The notes beneath the pieces are model-generated. The model was not told where the DNA came from. It saw nothing but the letters and a program-made list of their open reading frames with translations, and ran no database searches. 50,329 bases of DNA from Candidatus Bipolaricaulota bacterium (lineage in GTDB: Bacteria > Bipolaricaulota > Bipolaricaulia > Bipolaricaulales > Bipolaricaulaceae). The stretch covers positions 1 through 50,329 of the forward strand of contig JAUQPF010000040.1 in assembly GCA_030550535.1 (NCBI GenBank), written 5' to 3'. The translations under genes and the position numbers were made by a program. Below, one piece after another: positions 20,059 through 47,675 of this stretch (positions are counted from its first letter, which is position 1; every line of letters starts with the position of its first letter).

Positions 20059-21210
20059 TCATTTCCGGGGAAGGAGAAATTCGTCCAGGAGCTGCGCCTT
20101 CGGGACCACGTTCCCGTCGATCATCTGGGCCACGCCCATCGTGCGGCCGTGGATCCCCGTCTCGTCGGCACGCAACGCCACGTAGAAGTACCAGTCATCG
20201 TAGGCCACCTGGGAGCCCTCCAGGCGCGCGGGGCTCAAGGGCCGCAGGGTGGCCCCACCCCCGCCCACCACGAGGTACGTCACCCCATCCCGCACGATCC
20301 GTTCGTAGTTGTGGGCGTGGCCGGTGATCACCAAGCGCACCCCCAGCTCCACGAACGCCGGATGCCAAAGCTTCTGCAGCCCTTCCACGCCCGGGAAGTA
20401 GATGGCATCGGAGGAGAACACGGGGTGGTGGAACATCACGATCTTATGGGGTTCAGGCCCGGAGAGGCTCTGATAAAGCCAGCTCAGTTGTTCATGGTAG
20501 TCCTGGGGGGTCCGGGCGTTGGAGTCGAGCCCCACCACGATCACGTCGCCGAAGCGCAAGGTCCACCAACGCTTCCCTAGCCTCCCCCCACCCGGGGGCA
20601 GGGCGAAGTGTTGGTAGTACGTGAGGCTATCCCGCTCGTGGTTCCCCAGGACCGGCAGGAACGGGGCCCGCAGGAGCACGGGGGCCATGGAGCGGAAGAA
20701 GAACTCCCAGTGCGCGGGTACCGGGGTCTCCACGAGATCCCCCGCGTGGAGCACGAAATGGAAGGGCCAGGGGTCGAGGCTCATGGCCGTGGCCACGAGC
20801 TCCACGCGGTTCAGACCTTCCCACTGCCATTGGGTATCGGCGATCACCCCCATCCACACGGGTTCCCCAGGCGCCACCGCGGTGGCAAACGTGCCCACCT
20901 GGGATGCCGTCCCATCGGGAAACACGAGGCGATAGGCGTACCTCATGGAGGGCAAAAGACCCTCCAGGCGGAAATGGACGAGCTCCCGACCCGCAGCCCC
21001 CGCGGGGGCGTACAGGGCGGCGTGGGGGAACGCGCCCGAGGCCTGGAACTCTTCCAGGGGCGCGTACTCCACGCGCACCGGGGTGGCCGGGCTCTGGGCC
21101 CAGGACACGGTGATCGCCGTAGGTTCCGGAGCGCCTGTCCAAGGTCCGTAAAGAAGCGGACCGCCCAGGGCCAGGCTGCCCACCAAAGCGCACAGCAATG
21201 CAGCCCTCAT
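20059..21210 (-). CDS. Exported purple-acid-phosphatase-like metallophosphoesterase
   Basis: A 383-residue protein with signal peptide (RAALLCALVGSLALGG), an N-terminal fibronectin-like domain (TAITVSWAQ ... RYAYRLVFPDG) and a metallophosphatase domain from about residue 115. Metal-binding motifs are ADTQ, GDLVE, LGNHERD, FHHPVF and GHAHNYER, the five-motif set of purple acid phosphatases. It should release phosphate from organic esters outside the cytoplasm. Its ATG overlaps the stop of the SNase-like gene by four bases. It is the last gene of a five-gene operon with a secreted nuclease and an ABC importer, which suggests extracellular nucleotide or organophosphate processing. Confidence 0.92.
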   Translation of the reverse strand: MRAALLCALVGSLALGGPLLYGPWTGAPEPTAITVSWAQSPATPVRVEYAPLEEFQASGAFPHAALYAPAGAAGRELVHFRLEGLLPSMRYAYRLVFPDGTASQVGTFATAVAPGEPVWMGVIADTQWQWEGLNRVELVATAMSLDPWPFHFVLHAGDLVETPVPAHWEFFFRSMAPVLLRAPFLPVLGNHERDSLTYYQHFALPPGGGRLGKRWWTLRFGDVIVVGLDSNARTPQDYHEQLSWLYQSLSGPEPHKIVMFHHPVFSSDAIYFPGVEGLQKLWHPAFVELGVRLVITGHAHNYERIVRDGVTYLVVGGGGATLRPLSPARLEGSQVAYDDWYFYVALRADETGIHGRTMGVAQMIDGNVVPKAQLLDEFLLPRK

Positions 21211-22019
21211 GGCTCCTCCCAGATTTGAAGCTGCTCAGGAAAATGGATCGTCACACGGGGCCCATTACGAAGGCTATCCCAAGCGAGTTCTCCCCTCACC
21301 ACCACTTTTTTCCCCACCAGTCTCCCAAGGTCCAGCTCTTCTAAGCGCCAAAACGTCCGGCAAAGCTCGGGCTGGAGCACCGCGCGGAATCCATAGCGGC
21401 TGCCGCTGGCCCAAAGGACCCATCCCTGGGGCTCTAAGCCCACGCGGGAGACCTCAAACACCACCGCCACAGCCTGGGTCACGTAGCGCACGGGATCGGC
21501 CTCGATTTCCCAAAGGAAGCGGGGCATGGCCGCCGTGCCCCAAAGGCCGAGCCCCTCTGCCTGCGCCAGAGCCACCGCGTGCAGAAAGCGGCAGTAATAG
21601 GGCTCCCGCTCCGGGTAGTACACCAAAAGCCGCGCGAGCCCTGCCCGAAGGAGCGCCTCGTTCACCATCACCCAACCCTCGTCCCCCTCCACCCAGAGGT
21701 ACCCCAAAAGACGGCGATGGGTGTCCCTGAGCTCCCGGGGGTTCAGCTCCACGTACACCGGTTTCCCAAGGGTGAGCGCGCGGAGGAGCCGCGTGGCCTC
21801 CTCGGCCAGGGGCTCGCCGACCTCGGGGGCATCGATCCCAAGAAGCCGCACCCGCTCGTTTGGGGTAACGCCCTCGGGCACGGGGCCGGTGAAGCGGAGG
21901 TCGCAGGTGTCGCCGTCCAGCCAGCGGGTGATGCGCGCCGGCAGGGCCCCCTCCGGGGGCGCCCCGAACCCCGCCAGGGCAAGGAACCCCAACGCCACGA
22001 TCAACACGGCTATACGCAT
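21207..22019 (-). CDS. Exported staphylococcal-nuclease-like (thermonuclease) protein
   Basis: A 270-residue protein with signal peptide (RIAVLIVALGFLALAGFG). An SNase-type OB-fold nuclease follows: ITRWLDGDTCDL, VRLLGIDAPEVGEP and DTHRRLLGYLW hold the positions of the catalytic Arg, Glu/Asp and Arg of Staphylococcus nuclease. A C-terminal beta-rich domain (about 175-270; KKVVVRGELAWDS ... VTIHFPE) looks like a second OB fold for nucleic acid binding. Predicted to cleave DNA or RNA outside the cell. The ATG at 22019 has GGGAGGAAAGG upstream. It lies 11 bases after the ABC permease gene and overlaps the phosphatase gene, so it is part of that operon. Confidence 0.9.
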   Translation of the reverse strand: MRIAVLIVALGFLALAGFGAPPEGALPARITRWLDGDTCDLRFTGPVPEGVTPNERVRLLGIDAPEVGEPLAEEATRLLRALTLGKPVYVELNPRELRDTHRRLLGYLWVEGDEGWVMVNEALLRAGLARLLVYYPEREPYYCRFLHAVALAQAEGLGLWGTAAMPRFLWEIEADPVRYVTQAVAVVFEVSRVGLEPQGWVLWASGSRYGFRAVLQPELCRTFWRLEELDLGRLVGKKVVVRGELAWDSLRNGPRVTIHFPEQLQIWEEP

Positions 22020-22030
22020 CCTTTCCTCCC

Positions 22031-23209
22031 TCAGCGCTCGTAATGCACCCGGCGCTGGACCACGGTGAGCTGGAAGAGCGAAAGGACGAAGATGATGGCG
22101 AAAAGGATCACGGAGGCGGCGGAGGCCGGCCCGTACTGCCCGGACTCGAAGGCCTTGCGGAAGATGTAGTAGACCATGGTCAGGGCGGAGTTCTGGGGGC
22201 CGGACCCCATGAACAGGATCATCACCTCCTCGAAGATCCGAAACGAACCGATGAGGGAGATGATGAGGAGGAAGAAGATCTGGGGGGTGAGGAGGGGCAC
22301 GGTGATCTTGCGCCAGGTTTGGAAGGAGCTCGCCCCGTCCACCCGGGCCGCCTCGTAGTACTCCCGGTCGATCCCCTGCATGCCCGCCAAGAGGATCAGG
22401 GCCTGGTATCCGGTGAAGCGCCACACCTGCATGAGGATGAGGGCCGGCATGGCCAGGCGCGGATCGTTCAGCCAGTCCAAAACGCTCATCTGGACGCCAA
22501 ACAGGCCGGCAAAGCTGGAAAGCAGGTAATTCAAAAGACCAATATCCCGGTTGTAGATCCAGCGGAACACCATGGCCACCGCCACCCAGGGCGTGATGTA
22601 GGGGAGGAAGTTGGCGGTGCGGAACAGGGCCCGCCCTCGCACGGCCTGGTTCAGGACCGTGGCCAAAAGAAGGGCCAAGAATAGGGTGACGGGAACGCTC
22701 ACCGCCACGTAGATCGTGGTGTTGATGAGCGACTTGTGGAAATCCCGATCGGCGAACACCGTCTGGAAGTTCGCCCATCCCACGGGGCGGAGGTCCCAGC
22801 GGGTCACCGCCGGCCGCACGGTGAGGTGCGAGCCCTCCCGGAGGACCACGAACTCCCGGTGTGCCCCCTCGTCCCGGAGGACCCAGCGGTCCGCTTGGCG
22901 CAGCCGTACCCAGAGGTCCTGGGGGTCCAACCCATACTTTCCGGCCAAGAACGTGGAAAGGGGGTCGGGCACGCGCCCGCGGCGGAGGAGGCTAACCCAA
23001 TCCTCCACGTCCGCGGTCACCACGAGGATGGCCTCCCCGGGAACCGTGCGGGTCCCGATATCGTAGGCGCTGTAGAGGAAGGCGTTCACGAAGGGGTAGA
23101 ACGTGAACAGGCCCAACACGGCCAGGGTGGGGAGGAGGTAGAGGTAGGCCTCCACCGTCTCCTTCCAGAAGCGTTTGCTCTTCCACTCCGCGGGGATGCG
23201 CCGGATCAT
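22031..23209 (-). CDS. ABC sugar-type transporter permease (MalF/UgpA-like)
   Basis: A 392-residue integral membrane protein of the carbohydrate uptake 1 family. The EAA loop that contacts the ATPase reads EAARVDGASSFQTWRKITVP. About six core helices are seen. A periplasmic insertion of about 100 residues between helices 1 and 2 (with DVEDWVSLLRRGRVPDP and GSHLTVRPAV) resembles the MalF P2 loop. Together with the binding protein and second permease upstream it forms an importer. No ATPase is encoded in the operon, so a shared MsmX/MalK-type ATPase elsewhere is expected. The substrate is unknown; sugars or glycerol-phosphate-like compounds are typical. Confidence 0.92.
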   Translation of the reverse strand: MIRRIPAEWKSKRFWKETVEAYLYLLPTLAVLGLFTFYPFVNAFLYSAYDIGTRTVPGEAILVVTADVEDWVSLLRRGRVPDPLSTFLAGKYGLDPQDLWVRLRQADRWVLRDEGAHREFVVLREGSHLTVRPAVTRWDLRPVGWANFQTVFADRDFHKSLINTTIYVAVSVPVTLFLALLLATVLNQAVRGRALFRTANFLPYITPWVAVAMVFRWIYNRDIGLLNYLLSSFAGLFGVQMSVLDWLNDPRLAMPALILMQVWRFTGYQALILLAGMQGIDREYYEAARVDGASSFQTWRKITVPLLTPQIFFLLIISLIGSFRIFEEVMILFMGSGPQNSALTMVYYIFRKAFESGQYGPASAASVILFAIIFVLSLFQLTVVQRRVHYER

Positions 23210-23218
23210 GGACGAAAA

Positions 23219-23244
23219 GGGGGAGGGGGAACCCCCCCTCCCCC
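23219..23244 (-). terminator. Intercistronic hairpin, probable attenuator between binding protein and permease
   Basis: In the 43-base gap between the binding-protein and permease genes, an 11-bp perfect stem (GGGGGAGGGGG / CCCCCTCCCCC on the minus strand) encloses a short loop and is followed by TTTT. Such partial terminators after binding-protein genes lower expression of downstream permeases or protect the upstream mRNA. Confidence 0.65.
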
Positions 23245-23252
23245 CGTTCCCT

Positions 23253-24452
23253 TCACTCCGCGATCAGGGCGGCGATCTCCGCCGCGAGGGCGTCCACGAA
23301 CTCCTTGGGGCCGAGCTCACCGGTGAGGAGGAGTTCCCAGTAGGTGATGAGGAGGTTGCGCATATCCATGTAGCGCGGGTGCAAAAGCTGCTGGAAGGCC
23401 CCCGCGAGGAGCTGCTCCGTGGCGGCCTTGGCGATGGGATCCGTGGCCGCGCGGGCCTGCCAATGAGGAGAGTTGATGGCGCTCCAGGTCACGGGGAGGT
23501 AGCCCGTGTTCTCCGCCCAGTACAGGACGTTATCGGGCCGGAGGAGGAACTCGATGAGCCGGGCCGCGGCCCGGATCTGCGCGAGCGTCTGGTTCATGGA
23601 GAAGATGGCGAGGTTTGTCCCCTGGATCATGGACTGGCAGGTCCTATGGCAGGGCACGGGGGCCACGGCGATGGGCACGCCCCGCTGCCGCGCGGCGTCC
23701 ACGTTGTAGGGCCAGCCCGCCGAGCTATCCAGCCACAGGGCGATGTCCACCCCCTCGGCCATGGCCATGTTGATGTACGCCCCCTGGACCAGGGCATACC
23801 GGGCGAGCTTGGCCGCGAACTCCGCGGCCTCCAGCCCCGCGGCGTCGTTCAGGCGGACCTCCTTCCAGTCCTCGGAGAGGAGGTCCCCCCCGGCCTGCCG
23901 GAGGAGGGTGAGGAACATCTCGGGGTTCGGGGGCCGGAAGCCCGTGGCGTAGCGGCGGGCGCCCTCGTCCTTGCCGAACGCCTCCACCACCGCCAGGAAC
24001 TCCGCCCAAGTCCGGGGCGGCTGGGGCACCAGGTCCGGCCGGTACACGAGGACGATCACGGACTTGTTGAAGGGCACGGTGACCAGTCGCCCCTCGAAGT
24101 ACTGGAGAAACGCGGGATGGATGTCCGCGAGCACCTCCTCGGAGAGGAAGAGGTCCAGGTCCACCAGGGCGTCGAGCCAGGTCACCGTCCAGTTCTCGTA
24201 CTGCTGGGCCAAGGTGGGGGGGTTCCCCGCGGCCACCGCGGCCACAAGCTTCTGCTGGAGCGCGCCGTAACCGCCTTGGTAGACCAGGTCCACCCGGACG
24301 TCCGGATTCTCCTCCATGAACTTCTGCACCAGCCGCTCCAGGAACGGCCCGTGGGCCCGGCCCATGGCGTGCCAGAAGGTGATGGTCACCTGCTGGCCCA
24401 GCGTTCCCAGGCCCAACCCTAGGATCAGCACCGCCAACACCAACGTACGCAT
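23253..24452 (-). CDS. ABC transporter extracellular solute-binding protein (family 1)
   Basis: A 399-residue exported protein with signal peptide (RTLVLAVLILGLGLGTLGQ). The mature part has the family 1 opening VTITFWHAMGRAHGPFLERL and KFMEENPDVRVDLVYQGGY, then NPPTLAQQY, VPFNKSVIVLVYRPDL and WAEFLAVVEAF. Closest in style to UgpB/MalE-type binding proteins for sugars or sn-glycerol-3-phosphate. No lipobox is evident. AAGGAGGTGG lies before the ATG. It sits between the two permease genes of the importer and is followed by an attenuator-like hairpin, consistent with a higher dose of binding protein. Confidence 0.93.
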   Translation of the reverse strand: MRTLVLAVLILGLGLGTLGQQVTITFWHAMGRAHGPFLERLVQKFMEENPDVRVDLVYQGGYGALQQKLVAAVAAGNPPTLAQQYENWTVTWLDALVDLDLFLSEEVLADIHPAFLQYFEGRLVTVPFNKSVIVLVYRPDLVPQPPRTWAEFLAVVEAFGKDEGARRYATGFRPPNPEMFLTLLRQAGGDLLSEDWKEVRLNDAAGLEAAEFAAKLARYALVQGAYINMAMAEGVDIALWLDSSAGWPYNVDAARQRGVPIAVAPVPCHRTCQSMIQGTNLAIFSMNQTLAQIRAAARLIEFLLRPDNVLYWAENTGYLPVTWSAINSPHWQARAATDPIAKAATEQLLAGAFQQLLHPRYMDMRNLLITYWELLLTGELGPKEFVDALAAEIAALIAE

Positions 24453-24525
24453 GTGCCACCTCCTTGATTTGGCCTCGCTTTGGGTTTTCCCCCTGCACTG
24501 TTCGTCCTCGTTTCCCCCTCACCTC

Positions 24526-25377
24526 CTACTTCAGCCCCGTGCGGGCGATTCCCTGGATGAACTGTTTTTGGGCGAAGAGGAAGAGGAGGAGGATCGGCAC
24601 CATGGCCATGGTGGCTGCGGCCATGAGGAGATGGTGGAAGTCGCCCATCTCCATCTGCAAAAAGCGCAGCCCCACCGGCACGGTTCGTAGGTCCACCCGA
24701 TCCGTCATGACGATGACCCAGAGGAACGCGTTCCACGAGGCCACGAACTTGAGGAGCGCCACGGTGGCAATGCCCGGCCGCACCAGGGGCACGGCGATCT
24801 GGAACATGTAGCGAAGGCGCGAGCAGCCGTCGATGCGCGCGGAGTCCCAAAGCTCATCGGGGACGGTTTTGAAGAACTGCCGGAGGAGGAACATCCCGAA
24901 CACCCCGGCCGTCCAGGGGATGATGAGCACCTGGTACGTGTTGTACCAACCGATGCGGTTCACCAAGATGAACGTGGGCACAAGGAGCATCTGGCCGGGG
25001 ATCATGAGGGTCCCCAGGAGCAGGGCCAAGATCAGCCCACGCCCCAAAAACACCATCTTGGCCAGGGCGTAACCGGCGGGGATGCTGGTGGCCACGTCCC
25101 CCACGGTGGTGGCCACAGCGATGAAGAAGGAGTTGAAGAAGTAGCGGCCAAACGGGGCGGAGTTCCAGGCTTCCACGTAGTTCCCCCACACCACGGGGCT
25201 CGGGATCCATTGGGGCGGGATCCGCATCACCGCTGCCCGTTCCTTGAGCGAGGTGGTGATCATCCAAAAAAAGGGAAGAGCCGTGATGACCACGGTGAAA
25301 AGGAGCAGGGTATACATGGTCGAGGCCCACAGGGCCCGACGGACACGGTACACCGTTGTCCCCTTGACGCCGGACAT
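24526..25377 (-). CDS. ABC sugar-type transporter permease (MalG/UgpE-like)
   Basis: A 283-residue protein with six helices. The N terminus has the family pattern [25 protein letters not shown], the conserved [26 protein letters not shown], and an EAA-type loop [20 protein letters not shown]. It is the second permease of the importer and the first gene of the operon. The ATG at 25377 lies 10 bases downstream of a -10 box, which argues for this start over longer ones and for a leaderless or near-leaderless message. Confidence 0.92.
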
Positions 25378-25387
25378 TGGGCATGGG

Positions 25388-25416
25388 ACTTTACCCAAGG
25401 TCCGCGCGGGGAACAA
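25388..25416 (-). promoter_or_regulatory. Promoter of ABC/nuclease/phosphatase operon
   Basis: On the minus strand TTGTTC (25411-25416), a 17-base spacer and TAAAGT (25388-25393) end 10 bases before the permease ATG. It is back to back with the tdk promoter. Confidence 0.6.
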
Positions 25417-25465: not shown

Positions 25466-26044
25466 ATGGGGGGTAGGCTGGAAGTCATCGCCGGTCCCAT
25501 GTTCGCGGGGAAGACCGAGGAGCTCTTGCGTCGGGTGGAGCGGGCGCGGATCGCTCGCAAAACCGTGCTCCTCTTCAAGCCCGAGATCGACGTGCGCTAC
25601 TCCGCCACCGAGGTGGTCACCCATAACGGAAGACGTCTCCCCTGCCGTCTCCTCCCGGTGTCCCTGGATCTTTCGGGGTTCAAAGAGCATCTCAGCCCCG
25701 AGGAGCTCGCGAGCGTGGAGGTCTTCGCCTTCGACGAAGCCCATTTCTTTGGGGCCTCGTTCCCCGAGATCTGCGAGGACCTCGTGGCCCAAGGGAAGAG
25801 GGTCATCGTGGCTGGGCTGGACCTGAACTTCCGGGCCGAGCCCTTCGGCCCCATCCCCGTGCTTTTGGCCCTGGCCGACGAGGTGGTGAAGCTCACGGCG
25901 GTGTGCACGGTGTGCGGCGCGCCGGCCACCCGCACCCAGCGCCTGGTGGGCGGGAAGCCCGCGCTGGCCGGACCCGAGGTCCTCCTCGGCGGCTTGGAGA
26001 TCTATGAGCCCCGCTGCCGCGAACACTTCGTGGCCCCCCGCTGA
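25466..26044 (+). CDS. tdk: Thymidine kinase (type II)
   Basis: A 192-residue enzyme that phosphorylates thymidine (and deoxyuridine) for salvage. The P-loop is GPMFAGKTEELLRR, Walker B is VFAFDEAHFF, and AGLDLNFRAEPFGP is the conserved substrate/lasso lead-in. The zinc-binding lasso contributes CTVCGAPATRTQR and a final C (RCREHF). Length is standard. It starts a plus-strand operon with an ABC importer and an SNase-like protein; the ATPase start codon lies inside its 3' end. Confidence 0.95.
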   Translation: MGGRLEVIAGPMFAGKTEELLRRVERARIARKTVLLFKPEIDVRYSATEVVTHNGRRLPCRLLPVSLDLSGFKEHLSPEELASVEVFAFDEAHFFGASFPEICEDLVAQGKRVIVAGLDLNFRAEPFGPIPVLLALADEVVKLTAVCTVCGAPATRTQRLVGGKPALAGPEVLLGGLEIYEPRCREHFVAPR

Positions 26045-26813
26045 GGGCGAAAGCTCCAAAAACGCTTTGGTGCTCCGCGAAATCCATGTGAGCTTTCCCC
26101 GTCCGGACGGCCCCTTCCCCGTCCTACGGGGTTTCTCCCTCGCCGTGGCCCTGGGGGAGGCCGTGGGCCTGGTCGGGCCTTCCGGCTGCGGGAAGACCAC
26201 GGTCTTGCGCGTGGCCGCCGGGCTCCTCAGGCCGGAGCGCGGCGAGGTGCGGGTGCGGGGAAAGCCCCCGCGGGGGCAGGTCGCTTACCTCCCCCAAGGG
26301 GACTCCCTTCTTCCCTGGCGCACCGCGCTCGGAAACGTCCTGGCCGCGTTGGAGGTGGATGGTCCCGTATCGCCGCAGGCGCGTAAGACCGCTTTAGAGC
26401 TCTTTTCCCGCTTCGGCCTCTCCGGGTTCGAGCGAAGTTTTCCCCGCGAGCTTTCGGGGGGGATGCGCCAGCGCGTGGCCCTCCTGCGCGCCTTTTTGGC
26501 CCGCCGGGAGCTCCTCCTTTTGGACGAGCCCCTGGGAGCCCTGGACGCCCTCACCCGCGCCGCGCTCCAGGATTGGCTCGCGGAGGCCCTGCGCTTCTTC
26601 CCCCGCACGGTGGTGTTGGTGACCCATGACGTGGAGGAGGCCCTCCTCCTCTGTGACCGGGTTTTGGTGTTGAGCCCGCGGCCTGCCCAGATCCTACGGG
26701 AAATCCGCCCGGCTACACCCAGACCGCGGCCGCGCGGCTCACCCGAGGTGCAAACCCTGCGGCTTCAGGTGCTTTCCGCCCTCGCCCAACAGGCCCATGG
26801 ACAAAGTGGCTAG
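26004..26813 (+). CDS. ABC transporter ATPase (SsuB/TauB/ThiZ-like)
   Basis: A protein of up to 269 residues. Walker A is GPSGCGKTT, the Q-loop is LPQGDSLLPWRTALGNV, the signature is LSGGMRQRVAL, Walker B is LLLDEPLGALDALTR and the H-loop is THDVEEAL. It energises the importer made with the next two genes, of the nitrate/sulfonate/taurine/thiamine-precursor class. The start is uncertain: ATG 26004 overlaps tdk by 41 bases, while TTG or GTG at about 26067-26070 would begin directly at the first beta strand. Confidence 0.92.
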   Translation: MSPAAANTSWPPAEGESSKNALVLREIHVSFPRPDGPFPVLRGFSLAVALGEAVGLVGPSGCGKTTVLRVAAGLLRPERGEVRVRGKPPRGQVAYLPQGDSLLPWRTALGNVLAALEVDGPVSPQARKTALELFSRFGLSGFERSFPRELSGGMRQRVALLRAFLARRELLLLDEPLGALDALTRAALQDWLAEALRFFPRTVVLVTHDVEEALLLCDRVLVLSPRPAQILREIRPATPRPRPRGSPEVQTLRLQVLSALAQQAHGQSG

Positions 26814-27540
26814 GCACGCGCAAGCCGCCCTCTTGGTGCTCGGACTCCTCGCCCTTTGGGAGGGGAGTTGTTGGCTTTTCCGCTTGCCTGTGTACGTTCT
26901 TCCCGCGCCCAGCCGGATTTTCACCACATTCATTCGGGATCTTCCCCTGCTTTTGGACCACGCGGCGGTCACCCTTTTGGAAGTGGCGTTGGGGCTGGGG
27001 ATCGGCGCGGCGGTGGGCATCGTTGTGGCCTTTTTGGCCTTCTACATCCGGCCCCTAGGGCAGGCCTTGACCCCCTTCCTCGTGGGAAGCCAGGTGGTGC
27101 CCATCTTCGCCGTGGCCCCCCTCCTGGTCCTTTGGTTCGGCTACGGGATCTGGCCGAAGGTGGCCGTGGCCGCCATGATCACCTTCTTCCCCTTGGCCAT
27201 CAACCTCCTCGATGGCCTGCGCTCCGTCCCCCTTGAGCTCCTGGAGTTTTTCCAGGCCTTGGGCGCGCGGGAAGGGAAGCTCCTGCGGTTGGTGCGCGTT
27301 CCCGCCGCCCTTCCGTTCTTGCTTTCTGGCCTTCGGGTCGGCGCCACCCTCGCCCTGGTGGGGGCCACGATCGGGGAATGGGTGGGGGCCAGCCGCGGCC
27401 TGGGCTACCTCATGATCCAGGCCAACGCCCGGTTGCGCATGGACCGGGTCTTCGCGGCCGTCCTCCTCCTCACCCTCCTTGGGGTTGGCCTCTTTGGGCT
27501 TCTAGGCGTCCTCGAGCGGCTTTTTCCCCGACGCCGCTAA
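26797..27540 (+). CDS. ABC transporter permease (SsuC/ThiX-like)
   Basis: A 247-residue protein of the binding-protein-dependent permease family with about six helices. It has the LPAPSRIFTTF opening seen in SsuC/TauC/ThiX proteins, QVVPIFAVAPLLVLWFGYG, and the EAA-type loop FQALGAREGKLLRLVRVPAALPFLLSGLRVG. It overlaps the ATPase gene by 17 bases. Confidence 0.92.
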   Translation: MDKVARHAQAALLVLGLLALWEGSCWLFRLPVYVLPAPSRIFTTFIRDLPLLLDHAAVTLLEVALGLGIGAAVGIVVAFLAFYIRPLGQALTPFLVGSQVVPIFAVAPLLVLWFGYGIWPKVAVAAMITFFPLAINLLDGLRSVPLELLEFFQALGAREGKLLRLVRVPAALPFLLSGLRVGATLALVGATIGEWVGASRGLGYLMIQANARLRMDRVFAAVLLLTLLGVGLFGLLGVLERLFPRRR

Positions 27541-27553
27541 AATTATTAACGCT

Positions 27554-28489
27554 ATGCGCACCTGGAAAGCCTTGGCCTTGGTTGCGCTCCTTGGGCTCAG
27601 CGGGCAGGCCTCCCTCCGCCTGATCCTGGACTTCTACCCCAACCCCAACCACGTTCCCCTTTACGTGGCTCAAGAGTTGGGGTTCTTCGCGGCGGAGGGA
27701 GTGGAGGTGGAGCTCCTTGTGCCCTCGGACCCCAGCGCGCCGGCCAAACTCGTGGCCGCGCGCGCCGTGGAGATGGGCTTGACCCCCCAGATGAACTTTC
27801 TCATCGCTGTGGACGAGGGCCTTCCCTTGGTGGCTGTGGCCGCCCTCATCGACGGGGCCTTGGGAGGCCTCCTCAGCCTGAAGGAGTATGGCGTCGCTCA
27901 GCTTGGGGATTTGCGGGGGAAACGCATCGGCTACTCCCTGGAGCCCCTGGAGCCCGTGCTTTGGCGGACCATGCTGGCCGTGGTGGGCGTGGCCCCCGGG
28001 GAGTACGAGCTCGTGTACACGGGCATGAGCACCGTGCCCGCGTTGCTCACCCGCGCGGTGGAGGCCATCGGGGCCTTTCGCAACTACGAGCCCCTGGCCG
28101 TTGCTCTTTTGGGGCACGATCCCGTGTTCTTCCCTCAGGAGGACTACGGCGTCCCCAACACGTACGAGCTCCTTTTCGTGGTCCACCCGGAGCTCCTCAG
28201 GGAGCGGGCGGAGGAGGTGCGGGCGGTGTTGCGGGCGGTGGCCCGCGGGCTCGCGTTCGTCCAGGAGAACCCTGAGGAAGCCTTTCGCCTCTTTGTCCGC
28301 GTCTTCCCTGAACTCGACGACGAGCTCAACCGTCGGAGCTTTGCGGTGACCCTCCCCCTTTACGCCCAGGGGCTCCGGCACGACGACCATCCCCGCTGGG
28401 AAGCCATGGTGGCCTTCCTTTTCCAGACGGGCATGATCCGCAAGGTTCTTCCCGCGGAGTTCCTCTACACCACCGCGGTGTTACCCTGA
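27554..28489 (+). CDS. ABC substrate-binding protein, NMT1/THI5-like (ThiY-type)
   Basis: A 311-residue exported protein with signal peptide (WKALALVALLGLSGQAS). The mature start LILDFYPNPNHVPLYVAQELGFF is the characteristic opening of ThiY-like proteins that bind pyrimidine precursors of thiamine, followed by VELLVPSDPSAPAKLVAA and MGLTPQMNFL. Related proteins bind riboflavin or other small heterocycles, so the ligand is inferred. No TPP riboswitch is visible upstream of the operon. A TAAAAT box 10 bases before the ATG might give extra transcription of this gene. Confidence 0.85.
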   Translation: MRTWKALALVALLGLSGQASLRLILDFYPNPNHVPLYVAQELGFFAAEGVEVELLVPSDPSAPAKLVAARAVEMGLTPQMNFLIAVDEGLPLVAVAALIDGALGGLLSLKEYGVAQLGDLRGKRIGYSLEPLEPVLWRTMLAVVGVAPGEYELVYTGMSTVPALLTRAVEAIGAFRNYEPLAVALLGHDPVFFPQEDYGVPNTYELLFVVHPELLRERAEEVRAVLRAVARGLAFVQENPEEAFRLFVRVFPELDDELNRRSFAVTLPLYAQGLRHDDHPRWEAMVAFLFQTGMIRKVLPAEFLYTTAVLP

Positions 28490-28547
28490 TCTGGCGGGAG
28501 CCCGAGCGAACGGCTACCCTTTGGGCCCCAGTGAAGAAGGAGGAAAC

Positions 28548-29330
28548 GTGAGGAAAACCCTGATTTTGACGATGCTGGCAGGCTTTCTGGCCTTCGGGGC
28601 GCCCTCGGTTCCAGCGCTCGTCACCCGGGTCTTGGACGGAGCCACGGTGGAGGTGCGCATCGAAAGCGTACCGGGACCGGCTCCCGCAGGAGTGCAACCG
28701 GGGAGCTTGGTCACGGTGCGCTACATCGGGGTGGGCCTCCCCCTTGCCCCCCAAGACGCGGAAAAGCTGCGGTCGCTGAACGCGCTGCTCGTGGAAGGGC
28801 GGAGGGTTTACCTCGAGTTCGAGGACAAAAAGACCTGGGAGGATGGGAAGCTTTGGGCCTACGTTTTTCTTGACGCTGACGGCCACCTCTTCGTGAACGC
28901 CGTCTTGATCGCCAGTCCCCTTGCGGGGTTCGTTCCCCTCCCGGGAGCGGAACGGTACAACGCCCTTTTGGCCTACGTGGACAGGGTACCTTTGGCTTCC
29001 CCCACCCTGGCCTGTCCGACCACGTACGCCTGGAACGAGGCCGGAAGATATGTGGGGACCACGGCCTGCGTGGAAGGACCCGTGGCGGGCGTGGGCACGA
29101 GCCGCGGCGGGGATGTCTTCCTGAACCTGGGGAAGCCTTACCCCGATCCGGGCCGGTTCACCCTGTTCATCCCCGCCCGCCACGTGGGCAAATTCGAAGC
29201 GGCTTTCGGCGCGCGCTTCTGGACGAACTTGGTTGGGGTGCGCGTCCGCGCCCTCGGGGAGATCCGCCTCTACCAAGGGGTTCCGGAGATCCTGCTTTCT
29301 GAGCCCGAAAACCTCGTCATCCTCCGCTGA
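28548..29330 (+). CDS. Exported SNase-fold-like protein with C-terminal OB domain, probably inactive
   Basis: A 260-residue exported protein (signal RKTLILTMLAGFLAFGAPSVPA). ALVTRVLDGATVEVRI and VTVRYIGVGLPL align with the first strands of staphylococcal nuclease, and residues about 165-260 (CVEGPVAGVGTSRGGDVFLN ... LYQGVPEILL) look like an OB fold. Where the active enzyme has the Arg-x-x-x-x-x-Asp-x-x-Glu segment, this protein has YIGVGLPLAP, and no second catalytic Arg is clear, so nuclease activity is doubtful. GAAGGAGGAAAC precedes the GTG at 28548. It resembles the nuclease at 21207-22019 in layout. It overlaps convergent gatB by 14 bases. Confidence 0.75.
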   Translation: MRKTLILTMLAGFLAFGAPSVPALVTRVLDGATVEVRIESVPGPAPAGVQPGSLVTVRYIGVGLPLAPQDAEKLRSLNALLVEGRRVYLEFEDKKTWEDGKLWAYVFLDADGHLFVNAVLIASPLAGFVPLPGAERYNALLAYVDRVPLASPTLACPTTYAWNEAGRYVGTTACVEGPVAGVGTSRGGDVFLNLGKPYPDPGRFTLFIPARHVGKFEAAFGARFWTNLVGVRVRALGEIRLYQGVPEILLSEPENLVILR

Positions 29331-46370: not shown

Positions 46371-47675
46371 ATGCGTGCCGTGGACCTGATCGAAAAGAAA
46401 CGGGATGGCGGGGAATTGACCCCCGCGGAGATCCGCTGGCTGGTGCAGGGCTACGTGGCCGGCCGCATCCCCGACTACCAGATGGCCGCGTTCCTCATGG
46501 CCGTGTACTTCCGGGGCATGAGCGAGGCCGAAACCGTGGCCCTCACCCAAAGCATGGTGGAAAGCGGCGAGCGCATGGATCTTTCGGCCATCCCGGGGGT
46601 CAAGGTGGACAAGCACTCCACGGGCGGGGTGGGCGACACGGTCACCCTTGTCCTTGTGCCCCTCATGGCCGCCTCCGGCCTGGTCATGGCCAAGCTCTCC
46701 GGCCGCGCCTTGGGCCACACCGGCGGTACCATCGACAAGTTCGAGTCCATCCCCGGGGTGCGCACCGAGCTCTCCCTCGGGGAGATCGTGGAACAGGCGA
46801 AACGGGTGGGGGCGGTGATCGCCGACCACACCGCGGAGCTCGTGCCCGCGGATCGCCTCCTTTATGAACTGCGGGACGTCACGGGCACGGTGCCCTCCCT
46901 CCCCCTCATCGCCGCCTCCGTCCTCTCCAAGAAGATCGCGGGCGGGGCCGACGCCATCGTCCTGGACGTGAAGTGCGGGGACGGCGCGTTCATGCGCACC
47001 CTGCCCGAGGCCCGTCGGCTCGCGGAGACCCTCGTGCGGGTGGGGAACCGCCTGGGCAAGAAATTCGCGGCCCTGGTCACCGCCATGGACCAGCCGCTTG
47101 GGCGTATGGCGGGAAATGCCCTCGAGGTGCGTCAGGCCATCGAGGTTCTGCGGGGCGAAGGGCCCAAGGACCTGCGGGAGGTCGTTCTGGCCCTGGGGGC
47201 TGAGCTCCTCGTGCTTGTGGGTGAGGCTTCCTCGCCCAAGGAGGGCCAGGAGAAACTTGCCCGGCTTTTGGACGAAGGGAAGGCGTTCGCCAAGTTTCGG
47301 GAGCTCGTGGCCGCGCAGGGCGGGGACGTGCGGGCCGTGGAGGAGCCGGAGCGGCTTCCCCGCGCGGCCCAGGTGGTGGAGGTCCTGGCCCCCCAAAGCG
47401 GGTACGTGCAGGCCCTGCGGGCCCGGGCCATTGGGCTTGCGTGCGGGCTTTTGGGCGCCGGCCGGGAGGTCAAGGGCCAGAGGATCGATCCGGCCGCGGG
47501 TGTGGAACTGCTCGCCAAGGTCGGGGATGCGGTGGAAAGGGGCCAGCCCCTGGCGCGCTTGCACGTGGGCCGGCCCGACCACCTGCCGGAGGCCCGCAAG
47601 ATGGTGGAGGAGGCGTTCGTCATCGGGGCCACGCCGCCTGCGCCCTCCCCGCTCATTCTCGACCGCATCGTGTAA
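46371..47675 (+). CDS. pdp: Pyrimidine-nucleoside/thymidine phosphorylase
   Basis: A 434-residue enzyme that splits uridine or thymidine with phosphate to the free base and (deoxy)ribose 1-phosphate. Signature segments are KVDKHSTGGVGDTVTL (phosphate site), SGRALGHTGGTIDKFESIPG (family signature), ADRLLYELRDVTGTVPS and SVLSKKIAGGADAIVLDVKCGDGAFM. The C-terminal domain is standard. Length matches bacterial PyNP. Together with tdk elsewhere in this window it supports nucleoside salvage. Confidence 0.95.
   Translation: MRAVDLIEKKRDGGELTPAEIRWLVQGYVAGRIPDYQMAAFLMAVYFRGMSEAETVALTQSMVESGERMDLSAIPGVKVDKHSTGGVGDTVTLVLVPLMAASGLVMAKLSGRALGHTGGTIDKFESIPGVRTELSLGEIVEQAKRVGAVIADHTAELVPADRLLYELRDVTGTVPSLPLIAASVLSKKIAGGADAIVLDVKCGDGAFMRTLPEARRLAETLVRVGNRLGKKFAALVTAMDQPLGRMAGNALEVRQAIEVLRGEGPKDLREVVLALGAELLVLVGEASSPKEGQEKLARLLDEGKAFAKFRELVAAQGGDVRAVEEPERLPRAAQVVEVLAPQSGYVQALRARAIGLACGLLGAGREVKGQRIDPAAGVELLAKVGDAVERGQPLARLHVGRPDHLPEARKMVEEAFVIGATPPAPSPLILDRIV

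Follow-up and report, generated by a model that had tools for sequence, protein, structure and literature searches.

A five-gene operon in the genome of a Candidatus Bipolaricaulota bacterium probably serves the scavenging of extracellular nucleic acids, with an SNase-type nuclease cutting the polymer, a phosphatase trimming the pieces and a CUT1 importer taking them up as dinucleoside phosphates, perhaps also as nucleotides, with the help of a MalK ATPase encoded elsewhere. The operon lies within a 50,329-nucleotide stretch of DNA (the window), which corresponds to contig C28 of a genome of 1.41 Mb (92% complete) from the phylum Bipolaricaulota, formerly Acetothermia. The original prediction of scavenging is supported by the conserved linkage of the genes, by the fusion of the two enzymes in eight genomes, by the neighbouring thymidine kinase gene, and by a binding protein of the dinucleotide-binding type.

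The operon has the predicted content and order: five minus-strand genes, recognized from open reading frames and Pfam/NCBIfam models, encode permease G, binding protein E and permease F of a MalG-MalE-MalF-type importer, followed by the nuclease and the phosphatase (Table 1). The presence of an SBP_bac_1/8 binding protein together with two BPD_transp_1 permeases (Pfam) assigns the importer to the CUT1 type. The proposed ATGA overlap of the nuclease and phosphatase genes is read at 21210-21207, and no ATPase gene is present in the operon, as had been noted. The start of the operon was previously placed at a TTG codon at 25416; the gene for permease G probably begins at the ATG at 25380. Secretion of the nuclease and phosphatase is predicted from signal peptides judged by eye. 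A sigma-70-like promoter was sought for the operon, which had been proposed to be transcribed from a single promoter, and none was found. The hairpin between the genes for E and F is a possible attenuator; the number of terminator-like sites in the pattern scan was not above the shuffle expectation. The insertion in permease F is missing in members of genera g2, g3, g6, g7, g9, g12, and g13, whose proteins lack residues ~61-141, so that F comprises 301-316 aa without the insertion versus 388-392 aa with it.

Table 1. Operon genes, neighbouring genes and sequence elements in the window.
Feature	Position	Strand	Evidence
Permease G, UgpE/MalG-type, 284 aa, first gene	24526..25380	-	BPD_transp_1 65.6 bits; best NCBIfam model UgpE, 145 bits versus cut-off of 297 bits
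Substrate-binding protein E, 399 aa, dinucleotide-binding-protein type	23253..24452	-	SBP_bac_8/SBP_bac_1; fold and pocket comparison
Permease F, UgpA/MalF-type, 392 aa	22031..23209	-	BPD_transp_1 74 bits
Insertion in F, ~80 residues, at the site of the MalF periplasmic P2 loop	22781..23032	-	Core match of F begins at residue 143, equivalent to MalF 265
Terminator-like hairpin between E and F	23220..23238	-	Pattern scan; G/C-rich, short T run
Predicted-secreted SNase-type nuclease, 270 aa	21207..22019	-	PF00565, 60 bits
ATGA overlap, nuclease stop/phosphatase start	21207..21210	-	Read directly in the sequence
Predicted-secreted metallophosphatase with PAP-like N-terminal domain, 383 aa	20059..21210	-	PF00149 (Metallophos), 51 bits
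Thymidine kinase, divergent from the operon	25466..26044	+	PF00265; NCBIfam thymidine kinase above cut-off
Pyrimidine-nucleoside phosphorylase, unlinked to the operon	46371..47675	+	PF07831/PF00591; TIGR02644, 549 bits, above cut-off

The catalytic motifs of both enzymes are intact. The nuclease scores above the PF00565 cut-off and carries the catalytic Arg, Glu, and Arg along with the Asp metal ligands of the SNase class: residues D35, D37, R58, D63, E66, and R103 match the metal-binding and catalytic positions. These residues are conserved in relatives, except that D63, an Asp in the window, is Asn in about one third of them. Its structural model (pLDDT 89) matches SNase with a TM of 0.89 by target, and in the model the C-terminal half forms a separate beta-rich second domain, which is probably an OB fold. 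The phosphatase belongs to the calcineurin-like metallophosphatase superfamily, with D125, Q127, GD 157-158, GNHE 189-192, HH 261-262, and GHxH 297-300 conserved in relatives; motif I reads D-x-Q in the window, with Gln or Arg at the last position across relatives. The earlier description of this enzyme as purple-acid-like is a loose one: the N-terminal domain of the purple acid phosphatase class scores 26.3 of the 30 bits required, and GDLVE replaces GDxxY, so that the tyrosine of that class is absent.

A second SNase-like protein is encoded in the window at 28521-29330 on the plus strand, downstream of genes for an SsuA/NMT1-type ABC importer (26004-28489) situated beside the thymidine kinase gene. 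Its active site is degenerate, with D, A, R, G, a gap and K at the six positions. This arrangement recurs in several relatives.

Conservation of the gene set was analyzed among 100 genomes of the phylum, 59 of which contain a strong match to the binding protein. The surroundings of the relatives' loci were scored with profiles of the five operon proteins and thymidine kinase, and 53 loci with usable flanks, which are related rather than independent, were counted at a distance of 7 kb. The linkage is more than chance, being kept across the window's family and into a second one (f2), while the arrangement varies. Separation of the enzyme genes from the importer in all relatives, named beforehand as evidence against the prediction, was looked for and not found: of the 53 loci, 37 carry the nuclease gene, 36 the phosphatase gene and 30 the thymidine kinase gene within 7 kb of the importer. 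Every one of the 31 loci in the window's family and of the 16 in family f2 has at least one of the three; all three are absent from the six loci of families f3, f5, f7, and f9. The phosphatase gene follows F in most loci and precedes G in genera g28, g33, g35, and g38, and the thymidine kinase gene is divergent in most loci and downstream in three. These lineage-specific positions indicate that the set stayed together through rearrangement. In genera g8 and g21 the phosphatase gene accompanies the importer but the nuclease gene is lacking; this, like the absence of all three partners from the six loci above, counts against the scavenging reading. In two genomes of genus g5 the nuclease groups with that of the f2 genus g18 on the nuclease tree, as would result from transfer of the cassette from one family to another.

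Among other variants, one locus (L227, genome G078) contains two consecutive nuclease genes downstream of F. A contig labelled Neomarinimicrobiota (L143, JAJRVI010000074.1) encodes F and a nuclease of the operon type, and its NCBI label looks wrong. In family f5 (L124, 10576-11400) a xylose-isomerase-like (AP_endonuc_2) gene is located between E and F and is followed by MalK, with neither nuclease nor phosphatase; the ligand of this importer may differ. Among the best 80 loci of nuclease relatives, those outside the phylum had no E, F, G or phosphatase nearby. A plasmid search with the binding protein gave no match, and a search with the fused protein described below matched with its phosphatase part alone, no fusion being present among the matches listed.

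In eight genomes (G010, G011, G013, G018, G028, G032, G036, and G061) from four genera (g4, g5, g7, and g12) the nuclease and phosphatase form a single open frame, and the complete fusion proteins comprise ~635 aa. Such a fusion implies a common compartment for the two enzymes, which probably act sequentially. The idea of repeated independent fusions as additional support was rejected, since on the nuclease tree all eight fall on one branch (support 97/96), indicating one event, and the fusion is counted once.

By sequence and modelled fold, the closest match of E is a dinucleotide-binding protein rather than a sugar binder. In a comparison of the model of E (pLDDT 94.4) with all of the Protein Data Bank, the top 25 hits by fold were chains of the Thermus thermophilus dinucleotide-binding protein carrying UpG (TM 0.84); the E-value of the first hit is stronger than that of the best other protein by more than four orders of magnitude. 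The Thermus protein is also the closest solved relative in sequence searches, although its identity to E is only ~30%. The identity of its ligand, uridylyl-3'-5'-phospho-guanosine, is taken from the PDB titles and from what PMC12718374 states of it. According to the titles of the 7c0f series, this UpG is endogenous; as it was carried through purification with the protein, the natural ligand of the Thermus protein itself may differ.

The pocket of E comprises Y62, Y85, E86, N87, S131, Y226, S243, Y249, Q277, G278, Y318, and R365. The Thermus pocket, defined here by the residues mutated according to PDB titles (Y56, F79, N81, S127, Y224, T240, Y246, and Q274), corresponds to Y62, Y85, N87, S131, Y226, S243, Y249, and Q277; six of the eight are identical and two are conservative replacements (F to Y and T to S). 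Three proteins, namely UgpB, the glycerophosphocholine-binding protein and the U3G-binding protein, hold the phosphate with two Tyr and two Ser, and Glu, Gly, and Arg are listed in addition (PMC12718374). E retains these residues; those of this kind that it shares with UgpB are Y62, E86, S131, G278, Y318, and R365, their roles being those given in PMC12718374. Residues N87, Y226, Y249, and Q277 are N, Y, Y, and Q in the Thermus protein and V, E, N, and G in UgpB. MalE has nearly none of the pocket residues in common with E, and the signature is also absent from the other CUT1 binding proteins encoded in these genomes. Position 87 is mostly N in nuclease-linked importers and mostly D in unlinked ones, which is a correlation and not proof; the f5 binding proteins keep most of the pocket, with D replacing N87. 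Membership in the established classes is not supported by the NCBIfam models, E scoring 84.8 of 411 bits for UgpB and 17.2 of 291 bits for MalE.

These comparisons make a dinucleotide or nucleotide the most likely ligand, followed by a nucleoside; a glycerophosphodiester is less likely and a sugar unlikely. Within the ligand guess of the original prediction, the nucleic-acid branch is thus favoured over the glycerophosphodiester branch, the closest protein being a dinucleotide binder. Its expectation that such a ligand would be new or unusual for this importer class does not hold, as the Thermus dinucleotide-binding protein and the nucleoside importer of M. bovis (PMC12838404) are precedents.

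The scavenging system could be the same with the importer carrying free nucleosides, the phosphatase removing all phosphate prior to uptake. The CUT1-like "glycerol" ABC importer of M. bovis has been shown to import nucleosides, thymidine among them (PMC12838404), the thymidine kinase gene is a conserved neighbour of the operon, and nucleosides would be among the products of the phosphatase. However, the pocket of E keeps the residues by which UgpB and the Thermus protein hold a phosphate or phosphodiester, and the genome already encodes four Bmp-type (nucleoside) binding proteins. The latter suggest that nucleosides have importers of their own, which fits a phosphate-containing ligand here, and that the operon need not be the main nucleoside route of the genome. 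Uptake of free nucleosides is therefore regarded as unlikely. Somewhat less probable still is a Ugp-type importer of glycerophosphodiesters or glycerol-3-phosphate, with the nuclease and phosphatase serving general phosphorus scavenging. Among NCBIfam models, those of UgpB, UgpA, and UgpE rank first or second for E, F, and G, the phosphodiester residues are common to UgpB, and a phosphatase-linked importer would suit such a ligand; yet every Ugp model scores far below its cut-off, Y226, Y249, N87, and Q277 agree with the dinucleotide binder rather than with UgpB, sequence and fold searches both place the Thermus protein far ahead of UgpB, and the operon has no glycerophosphodiesterase. An ordinary maltose- or oligosaccharide-type importer adjoined by enzyme genes by chance is very improbable: CUT1 importers mostly carry sugars and the f5 version contains the xylose-isomerase-like gene, but the conserved linkage, the fusion and the rearranged orders argue against chance, and the closest solved protein, like the pocket, is not that of a sugar binder.

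The missing ATPase was considered as an oddity of the operon and rejected, because the genome contains one OB_MalK-type ATPase, a lone gene (G000:C14) away from any permease. Further CUT1 operons of this genome also have no adjacent ATPase, and in f5 and f3 relatives MalK is located beside the importer. Sharing of one ATPase among importers is known for MsiK-type systems. The single lone MalK and the several CUT1 operons without an ATPase indicate that a shared ATPase is likely, and MalK likely serves the importer of this operon. As regards downstream metabolism, the pyrimidine-nucleoside phosphorylase encoded in the window could use the imported material, and PNP-family genes are also present in the genome. 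Nucleoside transporters with the Nucleos_tra2_C domain (CNT) were found in none of 40 genomes. A DHHA1 protein of NrnA length, a candidate for splitting dinucleotides inside the cell, was not found in this genome, which tells against the dinucleotide reading.

Staphylococcal nuclease leaves 5'-OH and 3'-phosphate ends and also yields dinucleotides. Products with 5'-OH and 3'-phosphate have been shown for Tudor-SNase as well (PMC5900569). When these separate facts are joined, removal of the terminal phosphate from SNase products would give nucleosides and dinucleoside monophosphates, the latter being of the same type as the ligand in the Thermus structures. The gene content and its conservation, the fusion, the intact catalytic motifs, the fold and pocket match and the lone MalK are observed; from these we infer that the enzymes are secreted and active, what the importer binds, how the steps follow one another and that MalK is shared, the most likely scheme being as follows. 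The secreted nuclease would cut DNA or RNA to short 3'-phosphorylated products, and the secreted metallophosphatase would strip their terminal phosphates, leaving nucleosides and dinucleoside monophosphates. Dinucleoside phosphates, perhaps also nucleotides, would then be taken up by the CUT1 importer, powered by the MalK-type ATPase encoded elsewhere, and thymidine kinase and nucleoside phosphorylases would salvage or ferment the imported material. A dedicated dinucleotide route, in which the enzymes would make dinucleoside monophosphates outside the cell and the importer would take them up whole, is a more tentative proposal; if true, it would assign a role in the living cell to dinucleotide-binding proteins of the Thermus type.

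Nucleic acids are a large pool of phosphorus, nitrogen and carbon in sediments, and their uptake by uncultured bacteria is poorly known. The locus suggests a pathway that is compact and open to testing, in a phylum that the literature cited here does not name among DNA degraders, and its relatives provide a natural nuclease-phosphatase fusion. A further caution is that the annotation of CUT1 genes as sugar or glycerol-phosphate importers may conceal the import of nucleic-acid pieces. To our knowledge, no nuclease partner is known for the Thermus dinucleotide-binding protein, and the operon gives genomic context to this orphan crystal structure with a dinucleotide in a "sugar" binding protein.

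Importers coupled to an SNase have precedents. What is new here is the accompanying phosphatase and its fusion to the nuclease in some relatives, the dinucleotide-type pocket, the remote location of the ATPase gene and the occurrence in this phylum. In mycoplasmas, loci such as MAG_5030 to MAG_5070 of M. agalactiae, as well as MHO_0730, Mpn133, and mhp379, comprise a surface SNase co-transcribed with or adjoining a sugar-type ABC importer and its binding protein, for which import of nucleic-acid precursors was proposed (PMC3585158; PMC9740415). By gene order, the Bipolaricaulota operon is of this type, with an SNase in one operon with a binding protein and sugar-type permeases. However, the mycoplasma operon includes its ATPase and has no reported phosphatase, whereas the Bipolaricaulota operon contains the phosphatase and no ATPase, and adds the fusion, the dinucleotide-type binding protein, the thymidine kinase neighbour and the distant lone MalK. 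The Thermus protein (PDB 7c0f series; Chandravanshi 2021, as cited in PMC12718374) resembles E in its fold and in the N, Y, Y, and Q of the pocket, so far as these sources describe it. The MBOVPG45_0748 importer of M. bovis, compared by its description, is likewise a binding-protein-dependent permease, annotated for glycerol and taking up nucleosides, but unlike the Bipolaricaulota operon it has no nuclease in its operon as described (PMC12838404). UgpBAEC of Escherichia coli shares the component types and phosphodiester-binding residues, while UgpB lacks the four dinucleotide-type residues and the Ugp operon contains UgpQ and UgpC and no nuclease. The extracellular-DNA loci of Candidatus Izemoplasma similarly cluster genes for nucleases, phosphate removal and transport, but these belong to other gene families, and Bipolaricaulota (Acetothermia) are not among the taxa covered (PMC8289736).
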